From assembly GCA_946186185.1 (NCBI GenBank), contig CAMHMJ010000013.1, positions 1 through 64,000 of the forward strand: a stretch of DNA of 64,000 nt, given 5' to 3'. This stretch comes from an uncultured Treponema sp. (GTDB lineage Bacteria; Spirochaetota; Spirochaetia; Treponematales; Treponemataceae). Positions 41,540-64,000 of the stretch are shown in pieces. The notes under the pieces were generated by a model. The model saw nothing but the letters and a program-made list of their open reading frames with translations, was not told the origin of the DNA and did no database searches. The position numbers and the translations under genes were made by a program. Position 1 is the first letter of the stretch. Every line of letters starts with the position of its first letter.

Positions 41540-41838
41540 AGAAATCCTTCTTCTGGTCTTATAATGAACTATTAGACTTAATTTTGAGTGTTTGAACTTT
41601 AATAAAAAATTGGCGTAAGCGGGGTTCCTGTTTGAAGGTACGACAAAGCGGAGCAAATGACAATGCTTGCATTGGCACTTGTGGAGCGACTCGTGACTAC
41701 CCGTTAGGTAAAACACTCAGCCACCGCGAAGCGGTACTGCCGTTTTTCAAACAGGGTTCCCGCTGAGAGCCAATTTTTGGATTAAAATTTACTAGTTCAA
41801 GATTTAGACTAATATAATTGAACGAAAGAAGGATTTTT
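41540..41838. repeat. Palindromic element B (long form) with flanking inverted repeats
   Basis: Core 41604-41778: ends AAAAATTGGCG and GCCAATTTTT, stems GCGTAAGCGGGGTTCCTG/CAGGGTTCCCGCTGAGAGC and CACCGCGAAGCGGT, with an insert of about 75 bases absent from the short form. Outside the core AAATCCTTCTT (about 41542) pairs with AAGAAGGATTT (about 41826), and ATTAGACTTAATTTTGA pairs imperfectly with TCAAGATTTAGACTAAT. The right arm contains the ribosome-binding site of the next gene. A relic end GCCAATTTTT lies at 41525, directly after ribH. Confidence 0.75.
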
Positions 41839-46354: not shown

Positions 46355-46602
46355 ACAGGTCGAAAATCGAGTTGCTTAGATCAATTAAAAATTAGCGTAA
46401 GCGGGGTTCCTGTTTGAAGGCGCGACAAAGCGGAGCAAATGTCAATGCTTGCATTGGCACTTGTGAAGCGACTCGTGACGGCCCATTGGGCAAAACACTC
46501 AGCCACCGCGAAGCGGTACTGCCGTTTTTCAAACAGGGTTCCCGCTGAGAGCTAATTTTTGAGTGGAGATTTTAATATTCGATATTCGGCCTGATTTTTT
46601 TT
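46355..46602. repeat. Palindromic element C (long form) with flanking inverted repeats
   Basis: Core 46386-46560, almost the same as element B, including the 75-base insert, but its ends read AAAAATTAGCG and GCTAATTTTT, a paired change from TTGGC/GCCAA. Outside it, CAGGTCGAAAATCG (about 46357) pairs with CGATATTCGGCCTG (12 of 14). It lies between the amylase gene and radC. Confidence 0.75.
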
Positions 46603-54309: not shown

Positions 54310-54460
54310 GAATGTCGAGTTTTATATTTCTAATTCTAAAATTGGCTCTCAGCGGGAACCCTGCTTGGAAAACGGCAGTACCGCTTCGCGGTGGCTGAAT
54401 GTTTTCCAACCAGGAACCCCGCTTACGCCAATTTTATATTATGTTTACAAACTCGACATT
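54310..54460. repeat. Palindromic element D (short form) with perfect flanking inverted repeat
   Basis: Core 54338-54434 with ends AAAATTGGC/GCCAATTTT and stems TCTCAGCGGGAACCCTG... and CCGCTTCGCGG. It lacks the 75-base insert of B and C. Flanks AATGTCGAGTTT (54311-54322) and AAACTCGACATT (54449-54460) are perfect complements unique to this site. Lies between the HtrA-like gene and the glucosaminidase gene. Confidence 0.78.
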
Positions 54461-57660: not shown

Positions 57661-60600
57661 CTACTCAAACAGAACAAAGCTTGCCCAGTAATAAGGATTG
57701 TCCCAGTTCTTTTCAAGCTTTAATTCTTCCTTGGATTCCCTGAAGGCTGCCGCCCAGGAAAGTTCTCCGGTTCTGAAGGCTTTTGTCTGAAGCTTTCTGT
57801 ATAAGCGTTCAAAGAAAATGCAGGTGGCTTCATCGTCTACATTCCAGAGGGCAAGACCTACCCGGTTTGCGCCGGCAAAATTGAAGCTTTCTGCAAGACT
57901 TGTAACGCTTTTTCCGTTTGTAAGCTCCTTTATGTCTGTCTGGCAGGCTGAAATCATAACCAGATCTGCATTCAGGTTCAGGTTTGCAGCTTCCGGAAGG
58001 GTAAGGTAGCCGTCCTCTGTGTTCACGGTTCGCGCATCCGAGGCGTCTGAAAAAACCAGGCTTGTCATCAGCGGGAAAGTGTTGTCGATGTAGGTATGGC
58101 ATGCAAAATGGATTATTGAGTTTTCCCCAAGAGAGCCCTTCTTTGAAAGCTCCTTTAAGGTTTCTTCCGATGCGTTGATTCCTTCTATAAGAGTAACGAT
58201 GTTTCCGCTTATTGCAGAGGCCGGAGTTCCACCCTGACTTCCACTGTTAGCTCCGTAACCAGAATTGCCTGCAGGGGAAGCAAAAATCTTGTCCTGCAAT
58301 TTGTGCAGTTCGCTTCCGGTTCCAGGAAGATTTTTCCAGGTTACACCGTTTGCATTAAAATATGCTTTCGCATTCTGAACGGTAGCAAGGTCTTTTATCT
58401 TTAAGCCTTCCGTGGTTTCTGCTCTTGTCTGGGTGTGGGAAATGATTCCCCTGTTGTTTCCCTGTCCGATTCTGCTGTAAATCGGGTTTCCAAAGGCAAG
58501 AACCCGGTAATTTCCCTTTGGTTTGTTTCTCTGCTTTTTAAGGGAAAGGGAAATACAGCCGCTGAAGCTGACCGCGTATTTTTCGCCGAAATCCAGTTCT
58601 TCCCCGTTTCCAAGAATGTCGAAGGGTAAATAGGAGAGGGAATTATCCGGTTCGATTAAAACCTCTGTTGTGAAATCAGGAAGAGCGTTTTCAACCGGAT
58701 GAATCAGCCTGTCGTATAAAGCCGTTCTGTATTCCGAAAAGCGTCCTTCTGAAAGCTCCTTTCTGTTCAGGAGAAGGTTTCTGAGGTTTGTTACAGTTGT
58801 TCCGTAATCAAAATCACTTTCGATTGCAGTAAGAGTTGTGCCGGATCTGGAAATAACCAGACACCAGGAGTTTATCTTTTCCCTTGGAACGGTTGTGGTT
58901 ACGGTAATCGTTTTTTTGTCGGTAACAGTTTCTTCTTCAAGAACCTTTGCGGCCAGTTCTTCAAGTGAAAAAATCTTGAAGCTGTCTTCAGGCTTTGTCT
59001 TAAGGCAGTCTGAGTATTTTTCTTCCCAGATAATATATTCCAGAATTGCCTTACCCTCTGTGCACCAGGTCCGTACTTCGTCAAGGCCGGCAATATTGTT
59101 CTTTTTGAGGGGAATGTAGGCCGGAACCCGTTTTGCAATATCCCGTTCCAGAATTTCAAGGCTTCGTCTGTTTTCAGTCAGCTTCTGGCTCATTGCATAG
59201 ATTGAAGTTTCGTCCCTTTCACCTTCTTTTTTCAGGCTCTGAAGAACGATTCCCGTTGAAAACTGCATGATGCTGGAATTCAGCTCTGCGAGAGTTTTTT
59301 TGTCTTTGTCCGTAAGCCCCGGAAGATTTTCCAGTTTTTCTTTTCTGAAGTTTTCCGGGCTTCCGTATAATTTTATCATCTGAGCGTACTGGAAGGCCTT
59401 CTGGCTGCTTTTTCGCTTTGCCCAGTAATCCAGTGCAATATAATTGAAGGCAAGGCATTTTTCATCAAGGGGTTCCTTTACCGAAGGTGTAAGGGACATA
59501 GTGCTCACTTTGGAAACGATGTCCATTGCCGTATTCAGACAGGAAATTTTCATGGATTCGTAGGAGGCCCTGTGCTTTTTTGGAGCCGTCTGCCAGTTCA
59601 TGTACAGGTCATAAAGAATGTCCAGGGCCTCACCATATCCCTGGGTCTGGGAGCAGGCAGAAAAGAGCATGCTGAGATAAGTAGCCCCGTCCTTGTAGTT
59701 CTTTTTTTGAAGCCAGGAGAGGATGGCAAGGTTTTTAAGTGAGTAAAGGGTTTCCGGGTGAGTCTTTCCCCAGATAATCCTGTTCAGGGTATAACTTTTT
59801 GAAGCAAAGTCCAGAGCCTTTGCGTTTTCGTTCATCTTGTAATAGATTCCGCAGAGAAGAACATTTGCCCGGGCTGTGAGTTCAACCGGTTCAGAAGAAA
59901 AATGCTCTGCAAGGCTCAGGGCTGTCTGTGCATTCTGAAGTGCCGTTTCCAGCTCTTCCTTTGTTTCTCCAAAATAATAAATCCGGGCAAGATTCAGGTA
60001 TTCCCAGGCACTTTCAATGGATTCCGTGTCTACTTCAATTGCTGCATCACCCGTGTCTGTGTCGTCATCGGAAACAACTTCTCCTGCTCCTCCGTCTTCC
60101 TCATCGCTTTCTGAAAGGCTGTCATCCAGAGCTGCAAAGGCATTTCCGATTGTTGCAGCTGCCTGATAGAAAACAAGGGCTGTTTCGTAATTTTTTATTG
60201 CTTCCGGATAGTTTTTGCTTTCTTCCGCAATTTTTCCAAAGCTGTCGTAGATTTCTGCCTTGTCCGAAGGGGTTGAGTTTTTAAGCTTGTCCAGTTTCTG
60301 AAGAACTTTTTCGTAAGATTCCTTTGATTTTTCGTATTCGCCGTTTAAAAGCTGAATTTTTGCAATGCTTTTTGTGAATTTGAAGGAATCTTCCGTCTGA
60401 TTTCCGTGAAGGAGTTCGGAAATTTTTAAGGCCTTTCTGTAGTTTTCAAGAGCTTTTTCGTATTCTTCCTGAATCGTATATACTTCACCGATGTCTGCAA
60501 GAAGTGTAACAACCCGGTCATCGTATTCTCCGTAGTAGTTCCGGTTTGCTTCCAGAATTGAACTGTAGTAGTGAAGGGCTTTTGTAAAATCCTGTTCAAC

Positions 60601-60984
60601 TCCTTTTCCGTTTTTGTAAAGACCTGCCAGCTGGTAAATTGAACCCGTGTCACCTGTCTTTTCGCCCTTCTGGTAGTAAATGGCAGCCTTTGCAAAGTCC
60701 TGAGGGGCTCCGACTCCGTTTTCAAAACACCAGCCTACATAGTAATAGGCCTCCGGATAATCCACGGTTGCTGCGCGAAAGAAATTCTCGTAGGCTTTTT
60801 TATATTCTTCGTCTTTTAAGGATGATATACCCATTTCAAAGAAGGTTTTTCCGTCGTCCTTTGCGGTATTTTCCTTTTTGACAGCTTTTTCACTGTCTTC
60901 AGCGTAGAGATTTACATTTGTTAGAAAAATTGCGGCAAGCAGTAAAAGAGAGCCTGTTTTGCGCTTTTTAAAAAACGTAATCAT
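57661..60984 (-). CDS. Secreted TPR/Sel1-repeat protein with CHAT protease domain
   Basis: 1107 residues. Signal peptide (LLLLAAIFLTNVNLYA, cut before EDSEK). Sel1-type repeats (AYYYVGWCFENGVGAPQDFAKAA, YQLAGLYKNGKGVEQDF) lead into about ten TPRs to near residue 520. A helical region follows, then a CHAT domain (about 720-1107) with the histidine in IHFACHTYID, the cysteine in VMISACQTDIK, and the typical ending PYYWASFVLFE. CHAT is a caspase-like cysteine protease fold. Both catalytic residues are present. Export of a CHAT protein is unusual. An AGAGGA box lies 10 bases before the ATG. The target is unknown. Confidence 0.88.
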   Translation of the reverse strand: MITFFKKRKTGSLLLLAAIFLTNVNLYAEDSEKAVKKENTAKDDGKTFFEMGISSLKDEEYKKAYENFFRAATVDYPEAYYYVGWCFENGVGAPQDFAKAAIYYQKGEKTGDTGSIYQLAGLYKNGKGVEQDFTKALHYYSSILEANRNYYGEYDDRVVTLLADIGEVYTIQEEYEKALENYRKALKISELLHGNQTEDSFKFTKSIAKIQLLNGEYEKSKESYEKVLQKLDKLKNSTPSDKAEIYDSFGKIAEESKNYPEAIKNYETALVFYQAAATIGNAFAALDDSLSESDEEDGGAGEVVSDDDTDTGDAAIEVDTESIESAWEYLNLARIYYFGETKEELETALQNAQTALSLAEHFSSEPVELTARANVLLCGIYYKMNENAKALDFASKSYTLNRIIWGKTHPETLYSLKNLAILSWLQKKNYKDGATYLSMLFSACSQTQGYGEALDILYDLYMNWQTAPKKHRASYESMKISCLNTAMDIVSKVSTMSLTPSVKEPLDEKCLAFNYIALDYWAKRKSSQKAFQYAQMIKLYGSPENFRKEKLENLPGLTDKDKKTLAELNSSIMQFSTGIVLQSLKKEGERDETSIYAMSQKLTENRRSLEILERDIAKRVPAYIPLKKNNIAGLDEVRTWCTEGKAILEYIIWEEKYSDCLKTKPEDSFKIFSLEELAAKVLEEETVTDKKTITVTTTVPREKINSWCLVISRSGTTLTAIESDFDYGTTVTNLRNLLLNRKELSEGRFSEYRTALYDRLIHPVENALPDFTTEVLIEPDNSLSYLPFDILGNGEELDFGEKYAVSFSGCISLSLKKQRNKPKGNYRVLAFGNPIYSRIGQGNNRGIISHTQTRAETTEGLKIKDLATVQNAKAYFNANGVTWKNLPGTGSELHKLQDKIFASPAGNSGYGANSGSQGGTPASAISGNIVTLIEGINASEETLKELSKKGSLGENSIIHFACHTYIDNTFPLMTSLVFSDASDARTVNTEDGYLTLPEAANLNLNADLVMISACQTDIKELTNGKSVTSLAESFNFAGANRVGLALWNVDDEATCIFFERLYRKLQTKAFRTGELSWAAAFRESKEELKLEKNWDNPYYWASFVLFE

Positions 60985-61003: not shown

Positions 61004-61161
61004 ACCTAAATTCGAATTTAATAATTATAACTCAAAAATTGGCTCTCAGCGGGAACCCTGTCTGGAAAACGGCAGTACCGCTTCGCGGTGGCTGAGTGTT
61101 TTCCAGACAGGAACCCCGCTTACGCCAATTTTCAATTAATATTTCAAATTCGAATTTAGAC
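61004..61161. repeat. Palindromic element E (short form) with flanking inverted repeat
   Basis: Core 61034-61132, 99 bases, nearly the same as element D. The stem CCTGTCTGGAAAAC/GTTTTCCAGACAGG differs from other copies but stays paired. Flanks CTAAATTCGAATTT (about 61006) and AAATTCGAATTTAG (about 61146) are complementary. Lies between the CHAT gene and the first rSAM lipoprotein gene. Confidence 0.75.
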
Positions 61162-61294: not shown

Positions 61295-61699
61295 ATGATT
61301 AAGTTAAAGAGAGATTTTAAGAAGGTTATTGCAGGTGTTGCGGCTTTCTGCGGCATGGGAGTTCTTACTTCCTGCTACGGCTGTCCGATGACTGACGAAA
61401 GTGTTTTCCCGGTTTCGGGAACGGTGATGGGTGCTTCAGAGAAATCTGTTTCTGGAATTAGTGTGGTTTCGGGAATCAAGGTTACCCTTATGCGGGACGG
61501 AAAAGAAATTGCCAGCACGGAAACCGATGATTCCGGTGATTATTATATGGAGTTCTTCTATAACGAGCTTGAGGAAGCGGAATATCAGCTGGTATTTGAA
61601 GATATAGACGGCGAAGAAAACGGAACTTACAAGACTAAGGTTCAGACCGTAAATGCAGACGGAAAGAAGTACATCCGCCTTGATGTTCAGCTGGACTAA
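61295..61699 (+). CDS. Radical-SAM-associated lipoprotein 1
   Basis: The ORF opens at 61211, but the promoter sits between, so the ATG at 61295 (MIKLKRDFKK) is the start: 134 residues. Lipoprotein signal (KVIAGVAAFCGMGVLTSC, lipobox LTSC), then CYGCP and a carboxypeptidase-regulatory-like beta domain (SGTVMGASEK ... SGIKVTLMRDGKEIAST ... DDSGDYYMEF). It fits the small lipoproteins encoded beside radical SAM/SPASM enzymes in Bacteroidetes and treponemes (rSAM/lipoprotein system, family recalled as TIGR04134). The enzyme is two genes downstream. The YGCP motif may be the modification site; that is inference. Confidence 0.8.
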   Translation: MIKLKRDFKKVIAGVAAFCGMGVLTSCYGCPMTDESVFPVSGTVMGASEKSVSGISVVSGIKVTLMRDGKEIASTETDDSGDYYMEFFYNELEEAEYQLVFEDIDGEENGTYKTKVQTVNADGKKYIRLDVQLD

Positions 61700-61705
61700 G
61701 CGCGA

Positions 61706-61745
61706 CTGAGAGCCAATTTTTGGATTATCAACTATAAAAATTGGC
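61706..61745. repeat. Relic ends of palindromic elements
   Basis: CTGAGAGCCAATTTTTGGATTA copies the right end of element B (41763-41784), and AAAAATTGGC follows at 61736. The order is tail then head, so these are leftovers of two copies or one scrambled copy, lying between the two lipoprotein genes. Confidence 0.5.
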
Positions 61746-61768
61746 ATTCGTCTTTATTCGGAGCATAT

Positions 61769-62221
61769 ATGGGAGTTCGATTTTCATCCTTCTGGAAAAG
61801 ATTTATAGTTTCTCTCCTTGCTGTTTTTGGAAGCGGGAAGATTATGTCCTGTGACCGTAACGGCATTGTAAGGGACAGAATGGTCTGCATGTACGGAGTT
61901 CCGGATCCGGTTGCGATGTATGGTTCTCCCTATATCATGGAACGGGCTTCCCTGAACGGGCAGGTTTACTGTGAAGGAAAAGCGGTAAGCGATGTTAAGG
62001 TTCGGCTTTTTGTGGATGGAAAAGAGGTTGATTCCTGTCTTACTCAGAGTGACGGAAGCTATTCCGTTGCCGTCAGAAATCTTTACGAAGAGCCGCAAGA
62101 GGTTCTGGTTCGCATCGAAGGACTTTCAGAAGACTCCGAATATCAGGTTTTTGAACAGACTGTTACCATAAATACGGATAATAATTCTCTGACCATGGAT
62201 TTTGAAATTAAGAAAAAATGA
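61769..62221 (+). CDS. Radical-SAM-associated lipoprotein 2
   Basis: 150 residues. Signal (RFIVSLLAVFGSGKIMSC) with the predicted lipidated Cys in IMSC, then VCMYGVPDPVAMYGSPY and the same kind of beta domain as lipoprotein 1 (LNGQVYCEGKAVSDVKVRLF, QSDGSYSVAV). The MYG(V/S)P repeats are candidate peptides for modification. GGAG box 8 bases before the ATG. Its stop overlaps the start of the radical SAM gene (ATGA), so the two are translationally coupled. Confidence 0.78.
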   Translation: MGVRFSSFWKRFIVSLLAVFGSGKIMSCDRNGIVRDRMVCMYGVPDPVAMYGSPYIMERASLNGQVYCEGKAVSDVKVRLFVDGKEVDSCLTQSDGSYSVAVRNLYEEPQEVLVRIEGLSEDSEYQVFEQTVTINTDNNSLTMDFEIKKK

Positions 62222-63330
62222 AACGGAATAATCACCTTTCCCTGCGGGATATAATTTTGCGGCATCTTTTCAGCTCCTACAGAAAAATCGAGACCCGGGA
62301 ACACCGTTTGAACTATCTTTTCTGGGAATGTACCCTTCGCTGCAATTTGAGTTGCCGTCACTGCGGTTCCGACTGCCTGAAAACTTCCGGTGTGGAGGAC
62401 ATGCCGGCTTCCGATTTTATCCGCGTTCTTGACAATATTAAGAAAAACGGAGTCCAGCGGCTTATGGTCTGCATTACGGGGGGCGAGCCTCTTCTGCGAG
62501 ACGATCTTGAAGAGGTTGGCAGGGCTGCCCGTCAGCGTGGCTTCGGCTGGGGAATTGTTACCAACGGTCTTTATATGACGGAAGAGCGCTTTTCTTCACT
62601 TTGCGAAAGCGGAATGGGCTCTTTAAGCGTAAGTATCGACGGACTTGAAGAAGAGCACAATGCCCTCCGGGGAAATCCGGAATCCTTTAAGGCAGTTGAA
62701 AAGACCATCGGACTATGCGTTGAAAGAAAAAAACGGCTTCCTAAGGGCTTTGCTTATGATGTCATAACCTGTGTTCATCATGGAAATATAAAAAAACTTC
62801 CCCTTCTGCGGGACTATCTTCTTGAAAAAGGTGTCAGTGACTGGCGGATTTTCTCGATTTTTCCCTCCGGAAGGGCAAATCAGAACGATCTTTCGCTGAC
62901 TCCTGAAGAATATAAGCAGCTGATGGATTTTATTGCGCAAACCAGAAATTACGTAAGCCCGGAAGGAAGAAAAATTCACCTGAATTACGCCTGTGAAGGC
63001 TATCTTGGCCGCTACGAACTGAAGGTTCGGGATTATTTCTTTTTCTGCCGGGCCGGAATCAATGTTGGCTCTGTGATGTGCGACGGTTCCGTTTCTGCCT
63101 GCCTTAGCGTGAGGGCAAAGGATTTTATTCAGGGAAACATCTATCAGGAAAACTTCGATTTTATGAAAATCTGGAATGAGCGTTTCTTGAATATGCGTGA
63201 CCGCCGCTGGGCAAAAACCGGAATGTGCAGAAAATGCAAAAGCTGGAAGTGGTGCCTGGGAAACGGAATTCATCTTCATAAGGACGCAAAGAGTGAGTGC
63301 GCCTACTGTAATAAAGCCATGCTGGAGTAG
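62218..63330 (+). CDS. Radical SAM/SPASM enzyme of the rSAM/lipoprotein system
   Basis: 370 residues. The [4Fe-4S] motif is CNLSCRHC, followed by CITGGEPLLRDD and IVTNGLYMT, SVSIDGLEEEHN. The SPASM region holds auxiliary-cluster cysteines: CRAGINVGSVMCDGSVSACL then CRKCKSWKWCLGN and CAYC. SPASM enzymes usually modify peptides. Direct coupling to lipoprotein 2 makes the two lipoproteins the likely substrates, in line with the known gene pairing (family recalled as TIGR04133). Cytoplasmic, so modification would precede export. Confidence 0.88.
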   Translation: MKRNNHLSLRDIILRHLFSSYRKIETREHRLNYLFWECTLRCNLSCRHCGSDCLKTSGVEDMPASDFIRVLDNIKKNGVQRLMVCITGGEPLLRDDLEEVGRAARQRGFGWGIVTNGLYMTEERFSSLCESGMGSLSVSIDGLEEEHNALRGNPESFKAVEKTIGLCVERKKRLPKGFAYDVITCVHHGNIKKLPLLRDYLLEKGVSDWRIFSIFPSGRANQNDLSLTPEEYKQLMDFIAQTRNYVSPEGRKIHLNYACEGYLGRYELKVRDYFFFCRAGINVGSVMCDGSVSACLSVRAKDFIQGNIYQENFDFMKIWNERFLNMRDRRWAKTGMCRKCKSWKWCLGNGIHLHKDAKSECAYCNKAMLE

Positions 63331-63418: not shown

Positions 63419-64000
63419 ATGTCTAATTATCTGTGTATTTGTCTTAGTCCTACACTTCAGAGAACGGTTGAATTTGGAAGCTTTCAGAAGAATGCCGTTA
63501 ACCGTGCAAAAAAATACCGGCTGGATGCCTCCGGAAAGGCTGTGAACTCAGCCCGGGTACTTTCCCAGCTGATACAGGCATCCGGTGATTTTTCTGGAGA
63601 TGCGGCAGGCTCAGTTACCGGGAAGCTTTCTGGCACTGGCACGGAATGTCTATCCAAAAACTGTAAGTCCGCAGTTCGGGTTCTTTGTCCCCTTGGCAAA
63701 ATGAACAGTCCGGAGTTTTGCGAGCTTGCGGAAAGAGACAAATTAGATGTCCGCTCAGTTCAGATTCCGGGGCGTGTGCGGGAATGCCTTACACTTTTAG
63801 ACAGCAATGGCGGAACAACGGAAGTTGTGTGCCCGGAACCTGCTTCTGAAAATGAGTTTTCAGGTGAGGCGGAGGCTTTTCTTTCGGCTCTTTCAGAGGA
63901 GCTTGAAAAATGCGACGCCGTGCTTTTTGCGGGAAGTACACCTCCGGGCTGGCCGGAGGATTTTGTTTCCCGAATTTCTGAAAAAATCGCCGCTTCTAAA
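63419..64000 (+). CDS. PfkB-family sugar kinase (5' part; runs off window)
   Basis: Not in the ORF track because it has no stop before the window edge. From the ATG at 63419 it reads MSNYLCICLSPTLQRTVEF, then NRAKKYRLDASGKAVNSARVLSQL and LFAGSTPPGWPEDF. These match the N-terminal substrate loop (here SGKAVNSARVL for the usual GGKGINVARVL) and the SGSLPPG segment of 1-phosphofructokinase/tagatose-6-phosphate kinase-like members. A Ser/Gly/Thr-rich insert (about 30 residues) sits in the lid region. The GKG glycine is changed to A, which is odd. TACACT lies 6 bases before the ATG and no ribosome-binding site is seen. Confidence 0.75.
   Translation, partial: MSNYLCICLSPTLQRTVEFGSFQKNAVNRAKKYRLDASGKAVNSARVLSQLIQASGDFSGDAAGSVTGKLSGTGTECLSKNCKSAVRVLCPLGKMNSPEFCELAERDKLDVRSVQIPGRVRECLTLLDSNGGTTEVVCPEPASENEFSGEAEAFLSALSEELEKCDAVLFAGSTPPGWPEDFVSRISEKIAASK

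Follow-up and report, generated by a model that had tools for sequence, protein, structure and literature searches.

The radical SAM/lipoprotein gene pair TIGR04133/TIGR04134 is catalogued and named in NCBIfam and is unexplained, as the family description gives neither chemistry nor site. In the literature searched we found no paper on the chemistry of TIGR04133/TIGR04134 or on lipoprotein splicing, and no reported product of a TIGR04133 enzyme, which agrees with a preliminary description of the locus studied here that took such pairs as a recognised system with an uncharacterised modification; some such systems may already figure in the splicease survey of Scott et al. 2022 (Chem 8:2659). The published site of the spliceases is X-Y-G (PMC10533398). 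In nature spliceases act at MYG and LYG; LYGLP is part of the splice tag GGPIRPLYGLPI, and the leader is not needed (PMC10533398, PMC11002830, PMC10373908). Spliceotide products are reported to inhibit proteases (PMC11117315), and 939 predicted splicease systems are given for Scott et al. 2022, as cited in PMC10533398.

We analyzed a window of 64,000 nucleotides (the whole stretch of DNA) from an uncultured Treponema species, and found lipoprotein 1, lipoprotein 2 and a radical SAM/SPASM gene in tandem on the plus strand (Table 1). The end of the lipoprotein 2 gene (62221) and the start of the enzyme gene (62218) overlap by four bases (ATGA, 62218-62221), and the preliminary description of two small lipoprotein genes with YG(C/V/S)P motifs, the second overlapping the enzyme gene by four bases, was correct in coordinates and content. 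The enzyme scored over the curated TIGR04133 cut-off with a profile match at residues 13-367 and lies beside a TIGR04134 lipoprotein (lipoprotein 1), so the pairing is one already catalogued by NCBI. The Pfam SPASM score was 28.6 bits against a cut-off of 21.5. The enzyme model had a pLDDT of 87.6, and the closest folds were SuiB, SkfB, BlsE, CteB, PqqE, and anSME. The nearest named relatives of the enzyme are Treponema, mostly from rumen and gut, which places the genome in that genus; the host genome has one TIGR04133 enzyme over the cut-off, and the enzyme occurred in 43 of 196 Treponema genomes and 66 of 295 Bacteroidales-order genomes sampled, gut and rumen species included. Culturable hosts of a TIGR04133 gene include Treponema saccharophilum (pTS1 genes) and Parabacteroides distasonis.

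Besides the lipoproteins, no neighbor recurred beyond a few loci when ORFs of at least 130 codons were compared, some large clusters in that comparison being antisense shadows. The CHAT-TPR gene (57661-60984) and the PfkB gene (63419-) were both rejected as functional partners, as neither is a recurrent neighbor of the enzyme elsewhere. The former runs divergently on the minus strand and encodes a 1107-aa protein whose N-terminus resembles a signal and which has TPR/Sel1 repeats, with a CHAT (caspase-like) domain at its C-terminus. A palindrome (AGCGGGAACCCTGTCTGGAAAAC plus the inverted copy) was also observed at four sites of the window (61048-61120, 54351-54373, 46524-46546, and 41742-41764; chance expectation 0), the first of which sits just upstream of the lipoprotein genes.

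In lipoprotein 1, the lipobox LTS-C27 is followed directly by Y28-G-C-P. Lipoprotein 2 is a paralogue of it (29% identity) with the lipobox IMS-C28, and its motifs MYGVP and MYGSP start 13 and 22 residues downstream. Against TIGR04134 (cut-off 39.8 bits) lipoprotein 2 was below detection, with no NCBIfam match, and still keeps the C, Y, and G of the partner alignment. The AlphaFold2 model of lipoprotein 2 showed a signal helix, a low-confidence tether at about residues 26-59 holding both motifs, and a well-predicted β-sandwich; the pLDDT was below 50 at residues 31-43, 45-66 in the blocks of residues 31-60, and 86-98 in the C-terminal sandwich. Foldseek matched the sandwich to transthyretin-like, carboxypeptidase D TTR-like, and CnaB domains. 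At least two motif lipoproteins per enzyme were also found at four other loci (L010, L015, L039, and L051), so the doublet of the window is not unique. We also sought unlinked substrates in the same genome: TIGR04134 gave one match over the cut-off, the CYGxP DNA pattern was matched 14 times, compared with 9 times for the reversed control, and none could be claimed as a substrate.

Table 1. Features of the cassette in the window and of related loci in other genomes (locus names precede positions that lie outside the window).
Feature	Position	Strand	Description or basis
Lipoprotein 1 gene	61295-61699	+	134 aa; ORF; TIGR04134 47.4 bits against cut-off 39.8
CYGCP, predicted modification site 1, lipoprotein 1	61373-61387	+	Lipid Cys plus Tyr-Gly-Cys-Pro; Y and G invariant in partner alignment
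Lipoprotein 2 gene	61769-62221	+	150 aa; ORF; no NCBIfam match; aligns with partners
MYGVP, predicted modification site 2a, lipoprotein 2 residues 41-45	61889-61903	+	Sequence; disordered tether after Cys28
MYGSP, predicted modification site 2b, lipoprotein 2 residues 50-54	61916-61930	+	Sequence; Y51-G52 are invariant alignment columns
C-terminal β-sandwich of lipoprotein 2, residues 60-150, transthyretin/prealbumin-like	61946-62218	+	AlphaFold2 model, Foldseek
Radical SAM/SPASM enzyme, TIGR04133	62218-63330	+	370 aa; 457.7 bits against cut-off 425; Pfam Radical_SAM and SPASM over cut-off
CX3CX2C (C42, C46, C49), SAM-binding cluster, then G50-S51 common to splicease clade	62341-62364	+	Sequence
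SPASM domain, C277, C295, C337, C340, C346, C364	63046-63309	+	Sequence; fourth Cys of CX2CX5CX3C absent, GNG instead
AY(M/I/A)GP pair	L147 1504-2318	+	
AY(M/I/A)GP pair	L163 4316-4711, 4853-5251	-	
KYGYP-repeat protein, 230-250 aa	L143 4180-4872	-	Repeats at C-terminal side; about 1.3-2.4 kb from TIGR04103-like enzyme
KYGYP-repeat protein, 230-250 aa	L142 3095-3850	-	As for L143
RiPP operon of Treponema G102	L187 338-9856		C39 peptidase/ABC exporter, HlyD-like protein, S41 peptidase, precursors, TIGR04133 enzyme, second SPASM-domain protein

The motif was followed across 80 loci of public genomes, to which searches at genus, order, and phylum level added more. Among 102 distinct TIGR04133-like genes with enough flank, a script that allowed all carriers found an X-Tyr-Gly partner within reach at 99, and inspection by eye at 101, the script misses being KYGMP about 700 bases upstream at L099 and EYGTP at L100. 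Only L111 had no X-Y-G partner by script or by eye. In control windows of the same loci, X-Y-G was present in 25 of 400 and X-Y-G-x-P in 3 of 400. The 101 loci with a partner are spread over Treponema, other spirochaetes, Bacteroidales, and Fibrobacter.

Y-G lay at most 50 residues from the Cys in 89 of 96 distinct adjacent lipoprotein-like ORFs; the other seven resemble chance frames or unrelated genes. Among these 89 adjacent partners, YGxP was found in 71 and C-Y-G in 56, where shuffling gave means of 0.8 (maximum 6) and 0.46 (maximum 4), respectively. These counts are non-independent owing to relatedness, which the shuffled null leaves in, and they come from a wide taxonomic spread. In the first motif of each, X was C in 57, M in 13, E in 11, A in 3, L in 3, and V in 2, the +2 residue was M, T, V, S, P, A, C, or G, and Pro stood at +3 in 66, being common and not invariant. 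An alignment of 36 partners, with a mean column identity of 24%, was invariant only at C28 (lipobox), Y51, G52, G64, and G96, of which G64 and G96 are domain glycines. The MYGVP/MYGSP repeats had been put forward as the likely site, to be doubted if no motif were shared across genomes; the shared motif was found and X-Y-G is kept across partners. The suggested invariance of Y-G-x-P held for Tyr-Gly and failed for Pro, leaving X-Y-G as the core.

More distant enzymes gave related patterns. Among the loci covered, a subfamily with 34-40% identity to the window enzyme had C-Y-G-x-P near the enzyme at eight (L225-L232); the partner at another distant relative (L234) carries SCFPVYYGP, and no partner was recognised at the locus of a further one (L233). 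In two genomes of the phylum search, near relatives of TIGR04133 (about 318 bits) accompany lipoproteins with AY(M/I/A)GP, in which Tyr is kept and Gly is shifted by one. Across the TIGR04133 partners and their carriers, the Tyr-Gly tag is the one constant feature, and it is not a product of chance.

The carriers themselves differed. We found lipoproteins with a transthyretin-like domain, as in the window; mini-lipoproteins of about 60-70 aa, composed of a signal, CYG(M/T)(P/V) and a short, mostly acidic tail; secreted proteins without a lipobox Cys, with the motif VYGGR.N; and, in one Treponema (G102), double-glycine RiPP precursors after a TIGR04133 enzyme (457.9 bits). At L192, L193, L195, and L208, the apparently secreted partners lacking a lipobox Cys have VYGGR.N and later LYG or LFG. 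G102 has three precursors with double-glycine leaders, ending in LGLGPCYGCPSR, YCVGYGGLPAR, and IYFGPYAGPFGR, and a possible fourth with CCAPYCHAGN; one core reads ...PCYGCPSR, and its CYGCP is identical to that of lipoprotein 1 in the window. Such a precursor was present in 1 of 196 genus genomes. The G102 enzyme is nested inside a Treponema-centred clade (support 100/100), which suggests that the RiPP carrier was swapped in locally. Since relatives of the enzyme pair with secreted non-lipoproteins or with a double-glycine RiPP, the lipoprotein is not an essential part of the system.

X-Y-G, the substrate hallmark of PlpX-type spliceases, is present in the window's lipoproteins. We took PlpX (IPR026482) to be TIGR04103. 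The window enzyme scored 125.8 bits against TIGR04103, far below the cut-off of 725, and so is not filed as a member. Profile rank was rejected as proof of kinship: with some TIGR04133 members, heme-type SPASM families come close to the TIGR04103 score or exceed it (NirJ2 in the case of G102). As rank was equivocal, trees were used instead. In a 34-row tree whose rows did not include PlpX itself, TIGR04133, its near relatives and the TIGR04103/TIGR03913 enzymes fell on one side of a branch with support 100/99, the splicease clade used being the sister of TIGR04133 and not its parent. Joining either TIGR04133 (AU p 0.0003) or the splicease group (p 0.0001) to the phylum-wide SPASM clade, an outgroup probably of heme type as judged by sequence resemblance only, was rejected. 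MftC and PqqE fell outside the X-Y-G clade in this tree and in a larger one. C-G-S after CX3CX2C, W209, and GYxGxYE are common to the clade and largely absent from MftC, PqqE, NirJ, and the phylum-wide SPASM clade. The fourth Cys of CX2CX5CX3C is missing in TIGR04133 (GNG for GGC), whereas PlpX-type relatives keep it, and no PlpY-like RRE partner gene was found between the lipoproteins and PfkB at 63419 or elsewhere in the window. The case for a splicease is built on tree and motif.

Substrates beside other members of the clade were also inspected. A Nostoc TIGR04103 enzyme (853 bits) lies downstream of a Nif11 precursor ending in RGSIALYGLPPELF and upstream of a 71-aa protein in the PlpY position. 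Precursors of the GDL system beside TIGR03913-type enzymes have LYG or PYG, or Tyr without Gly, with YAA or YMA in some. A spirochaete TIGR04103-like enzyme (227-232 bits) has in its neighborhood a protein in which KYGYP is repeated six to eight times, the distance being about 2.4 kb for a protein with six repeats; the L143 copy of this protein had no Pfam or NCBIfam match.

From the above results, the enzyme very probably acts on the Tyr of the Tyr-Gly tag. We propose that the three genes would form a substrate-enzyme cassette, in which the cytosolic enzyme would recognise the X-Tyr-Gly-(x-Pro) tag in the flexible tether of both lipoprotein precursors and, like PlpX-type spliceases, may excise a tyramine equivalent (C8H9NO) from Tyr and rejoin the chain. 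Residue X of the site, Cys27 in lipoprotein 1, would be altered by splicing to a ketoamide, the predicted mass loss being 135.07 Da in lipoprotein 1 and at most 270.14 Da in lipoprotein 2. Modification probably precedes export, because the enzyme is cytosolic and the substrates are secreted; the modified precursor would then be exported, lipidated, and anchored, and the reactive ketoamide would be shown at or near the membrane. Tyramine splicing is our best single guess for the reaction, with an even chance of being right, and we would place the cassette model as a whole, splicing of lipoprotein precursors included, at the same balance point. Several observations count against splicing, among them the low TIGR04103 score, the equivocal profile rank, the lack of a PlpY-like gene and the missing SPASM Cys; in addition, X in the C-Y-G class is the lipobox Cys, an unusual residue for a splicease, some GDL precursors have YAA/YMA, and near relatives of TIGR04133 have AYxGP.

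The same Tyr could instead be cross-linked, through a Y-G-x cyclophane or ether (triceptide or darobactin type) or a Tyr-centred C-C bond as in the PQQ and mycofactocin systems. The invariant Tyr and a +2 residue that is usually Met, Thr, Val, Ser, Pro, Ala, or Cys are compatible with this, the cross-linkers SuiB and PqqE are among the closest solved folds, and MftC and PqqE, not far off in the tree, also act on Tyr. Triceptide maturases join an aromatic residue to the beta carbon of the residue at +2. In several partners (VYGGR, VYGGQ, AYGGP, and GYGGLP) that position holds Gly, which has no beta carbon, and in others Pro; a Gly there is unusable for such a link and makes a Y-G-x cyclophane less likely, the remaining partners being compatible with one. 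Gly at +1 is invariant in the partners, while cyclophane- and darobactin-type enzymes are not known to need it. Neither of these families ranked near the top of the NCBIfam matches for the window enzyme, and the position of MftC and PqqE outside the X-Y-G clade points the same way, so that cross-linking appears rather unlikely.

Alternatively, X-Y-G-x-P may be a recognition tag only, with the chemistry elsewhere (a thioether, epimerisation, or a Cys modification at or near the lipidated Cys) and an effect on lipoprotein sorting. Of the 89 partners, 56 have the motif immediately at the lipobox Cys, which makes a role in anchoring or sorting conceivable, and the thioether makers SkfB and CteB are among the closest folds. 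Against this, the E-, M-, A-, and L-YGxP partners, the non-lipoproteins, and the RiPPs have nothing else in common with the lipoproteins, and with the motif as the single feature common to all carriers, there is no target residue elsewhere that they share; we consider a change elsewhere distinctly improbable. That the genes are linked for regulation or assembly with no covalent modification agrees with the unreported product and the lack of any paper found on the family, but is barely credible given that the genes lie together in 101 of 102 loci, that CX3CX2C is intact, that the SPASM fold is of a peptide-modifying kind, and that unrelated carriers conserve the motif alone.

If tyramine splicing is the reaction, its likely use, reasoning from spliceotides, would be to capture serine or cysteine proteases covalently or to inhibit them; such a protease-directed role is possible rather than probable. 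A broader and tentative reading, with somewhat less than an even chance, is that TIGR04133 enzymes are lipoprotein spliceases that may form a ketoamide in the tether of surface lipoproteins, the commonest class having it on the lipidated Cys, that membrane-anchored covalent protease traps may be displayed by roughly one in five of the Treponema and Bacteroidales sampled, and that members of the family may change from lipoproteins to secreted RiPPs as carriers and back. Within the reach of the tools used, three findings are new: the invariance of X-Y-G, the exchange of carriers (RiPP operon included), and the tree placement with spliceases; Scott et al. 2022 may cover part of them. The splicease link reduces an orphan pair to one question for mass spectrometry, whose expected answer is fixed at -135.07 Da per motif. 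If true, it would mean that backbone splicing reaches beyond peptides to lipoproteins of the bacterial surface.

Compared with the known systems, the window enzyme is similar to SuiB, SkfB, CteB, PqqE, and anSME in fold (TM-score 0.59-0.69 by query length) and cluster architecture, and differs from them in identity (17-20%) and substrate motifs; they are outside the X-Y-G clade where tested (PqqE). The GDL-motif peptide system (TIGR03913 with DUF1843 peptides) belongs to the same tree clade, and several of its precursors have X-Y-G near the N-terminus, whereas the GDL peptides are short, lack a signal sequence, have YAA/YMA in some cases, and are encoded in another operon. With the TIGR04133 and TIGR04134 system, the window shares adjacent genes that pass both cut-offs, and it differs in having two lipoproteins instead of one, the enzyme-proximal one having two motifs and escaping TIGR04134. 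From the PlpXY spliceases (TIGR04103, nif11-class radical SAM maturase 3), the window system differs in its score far under the TIGR04103 cut-off, the lack of a PlpY-like partner, one SPASM Cys fewer, and substrates that are exported lipoproteins without a Nif11 leader; it is like them in being a SPASM radical SAM enzyme of the same clade paired with X-Y-G sites, often X-Y-G-x-P, of which there are several per substrate.
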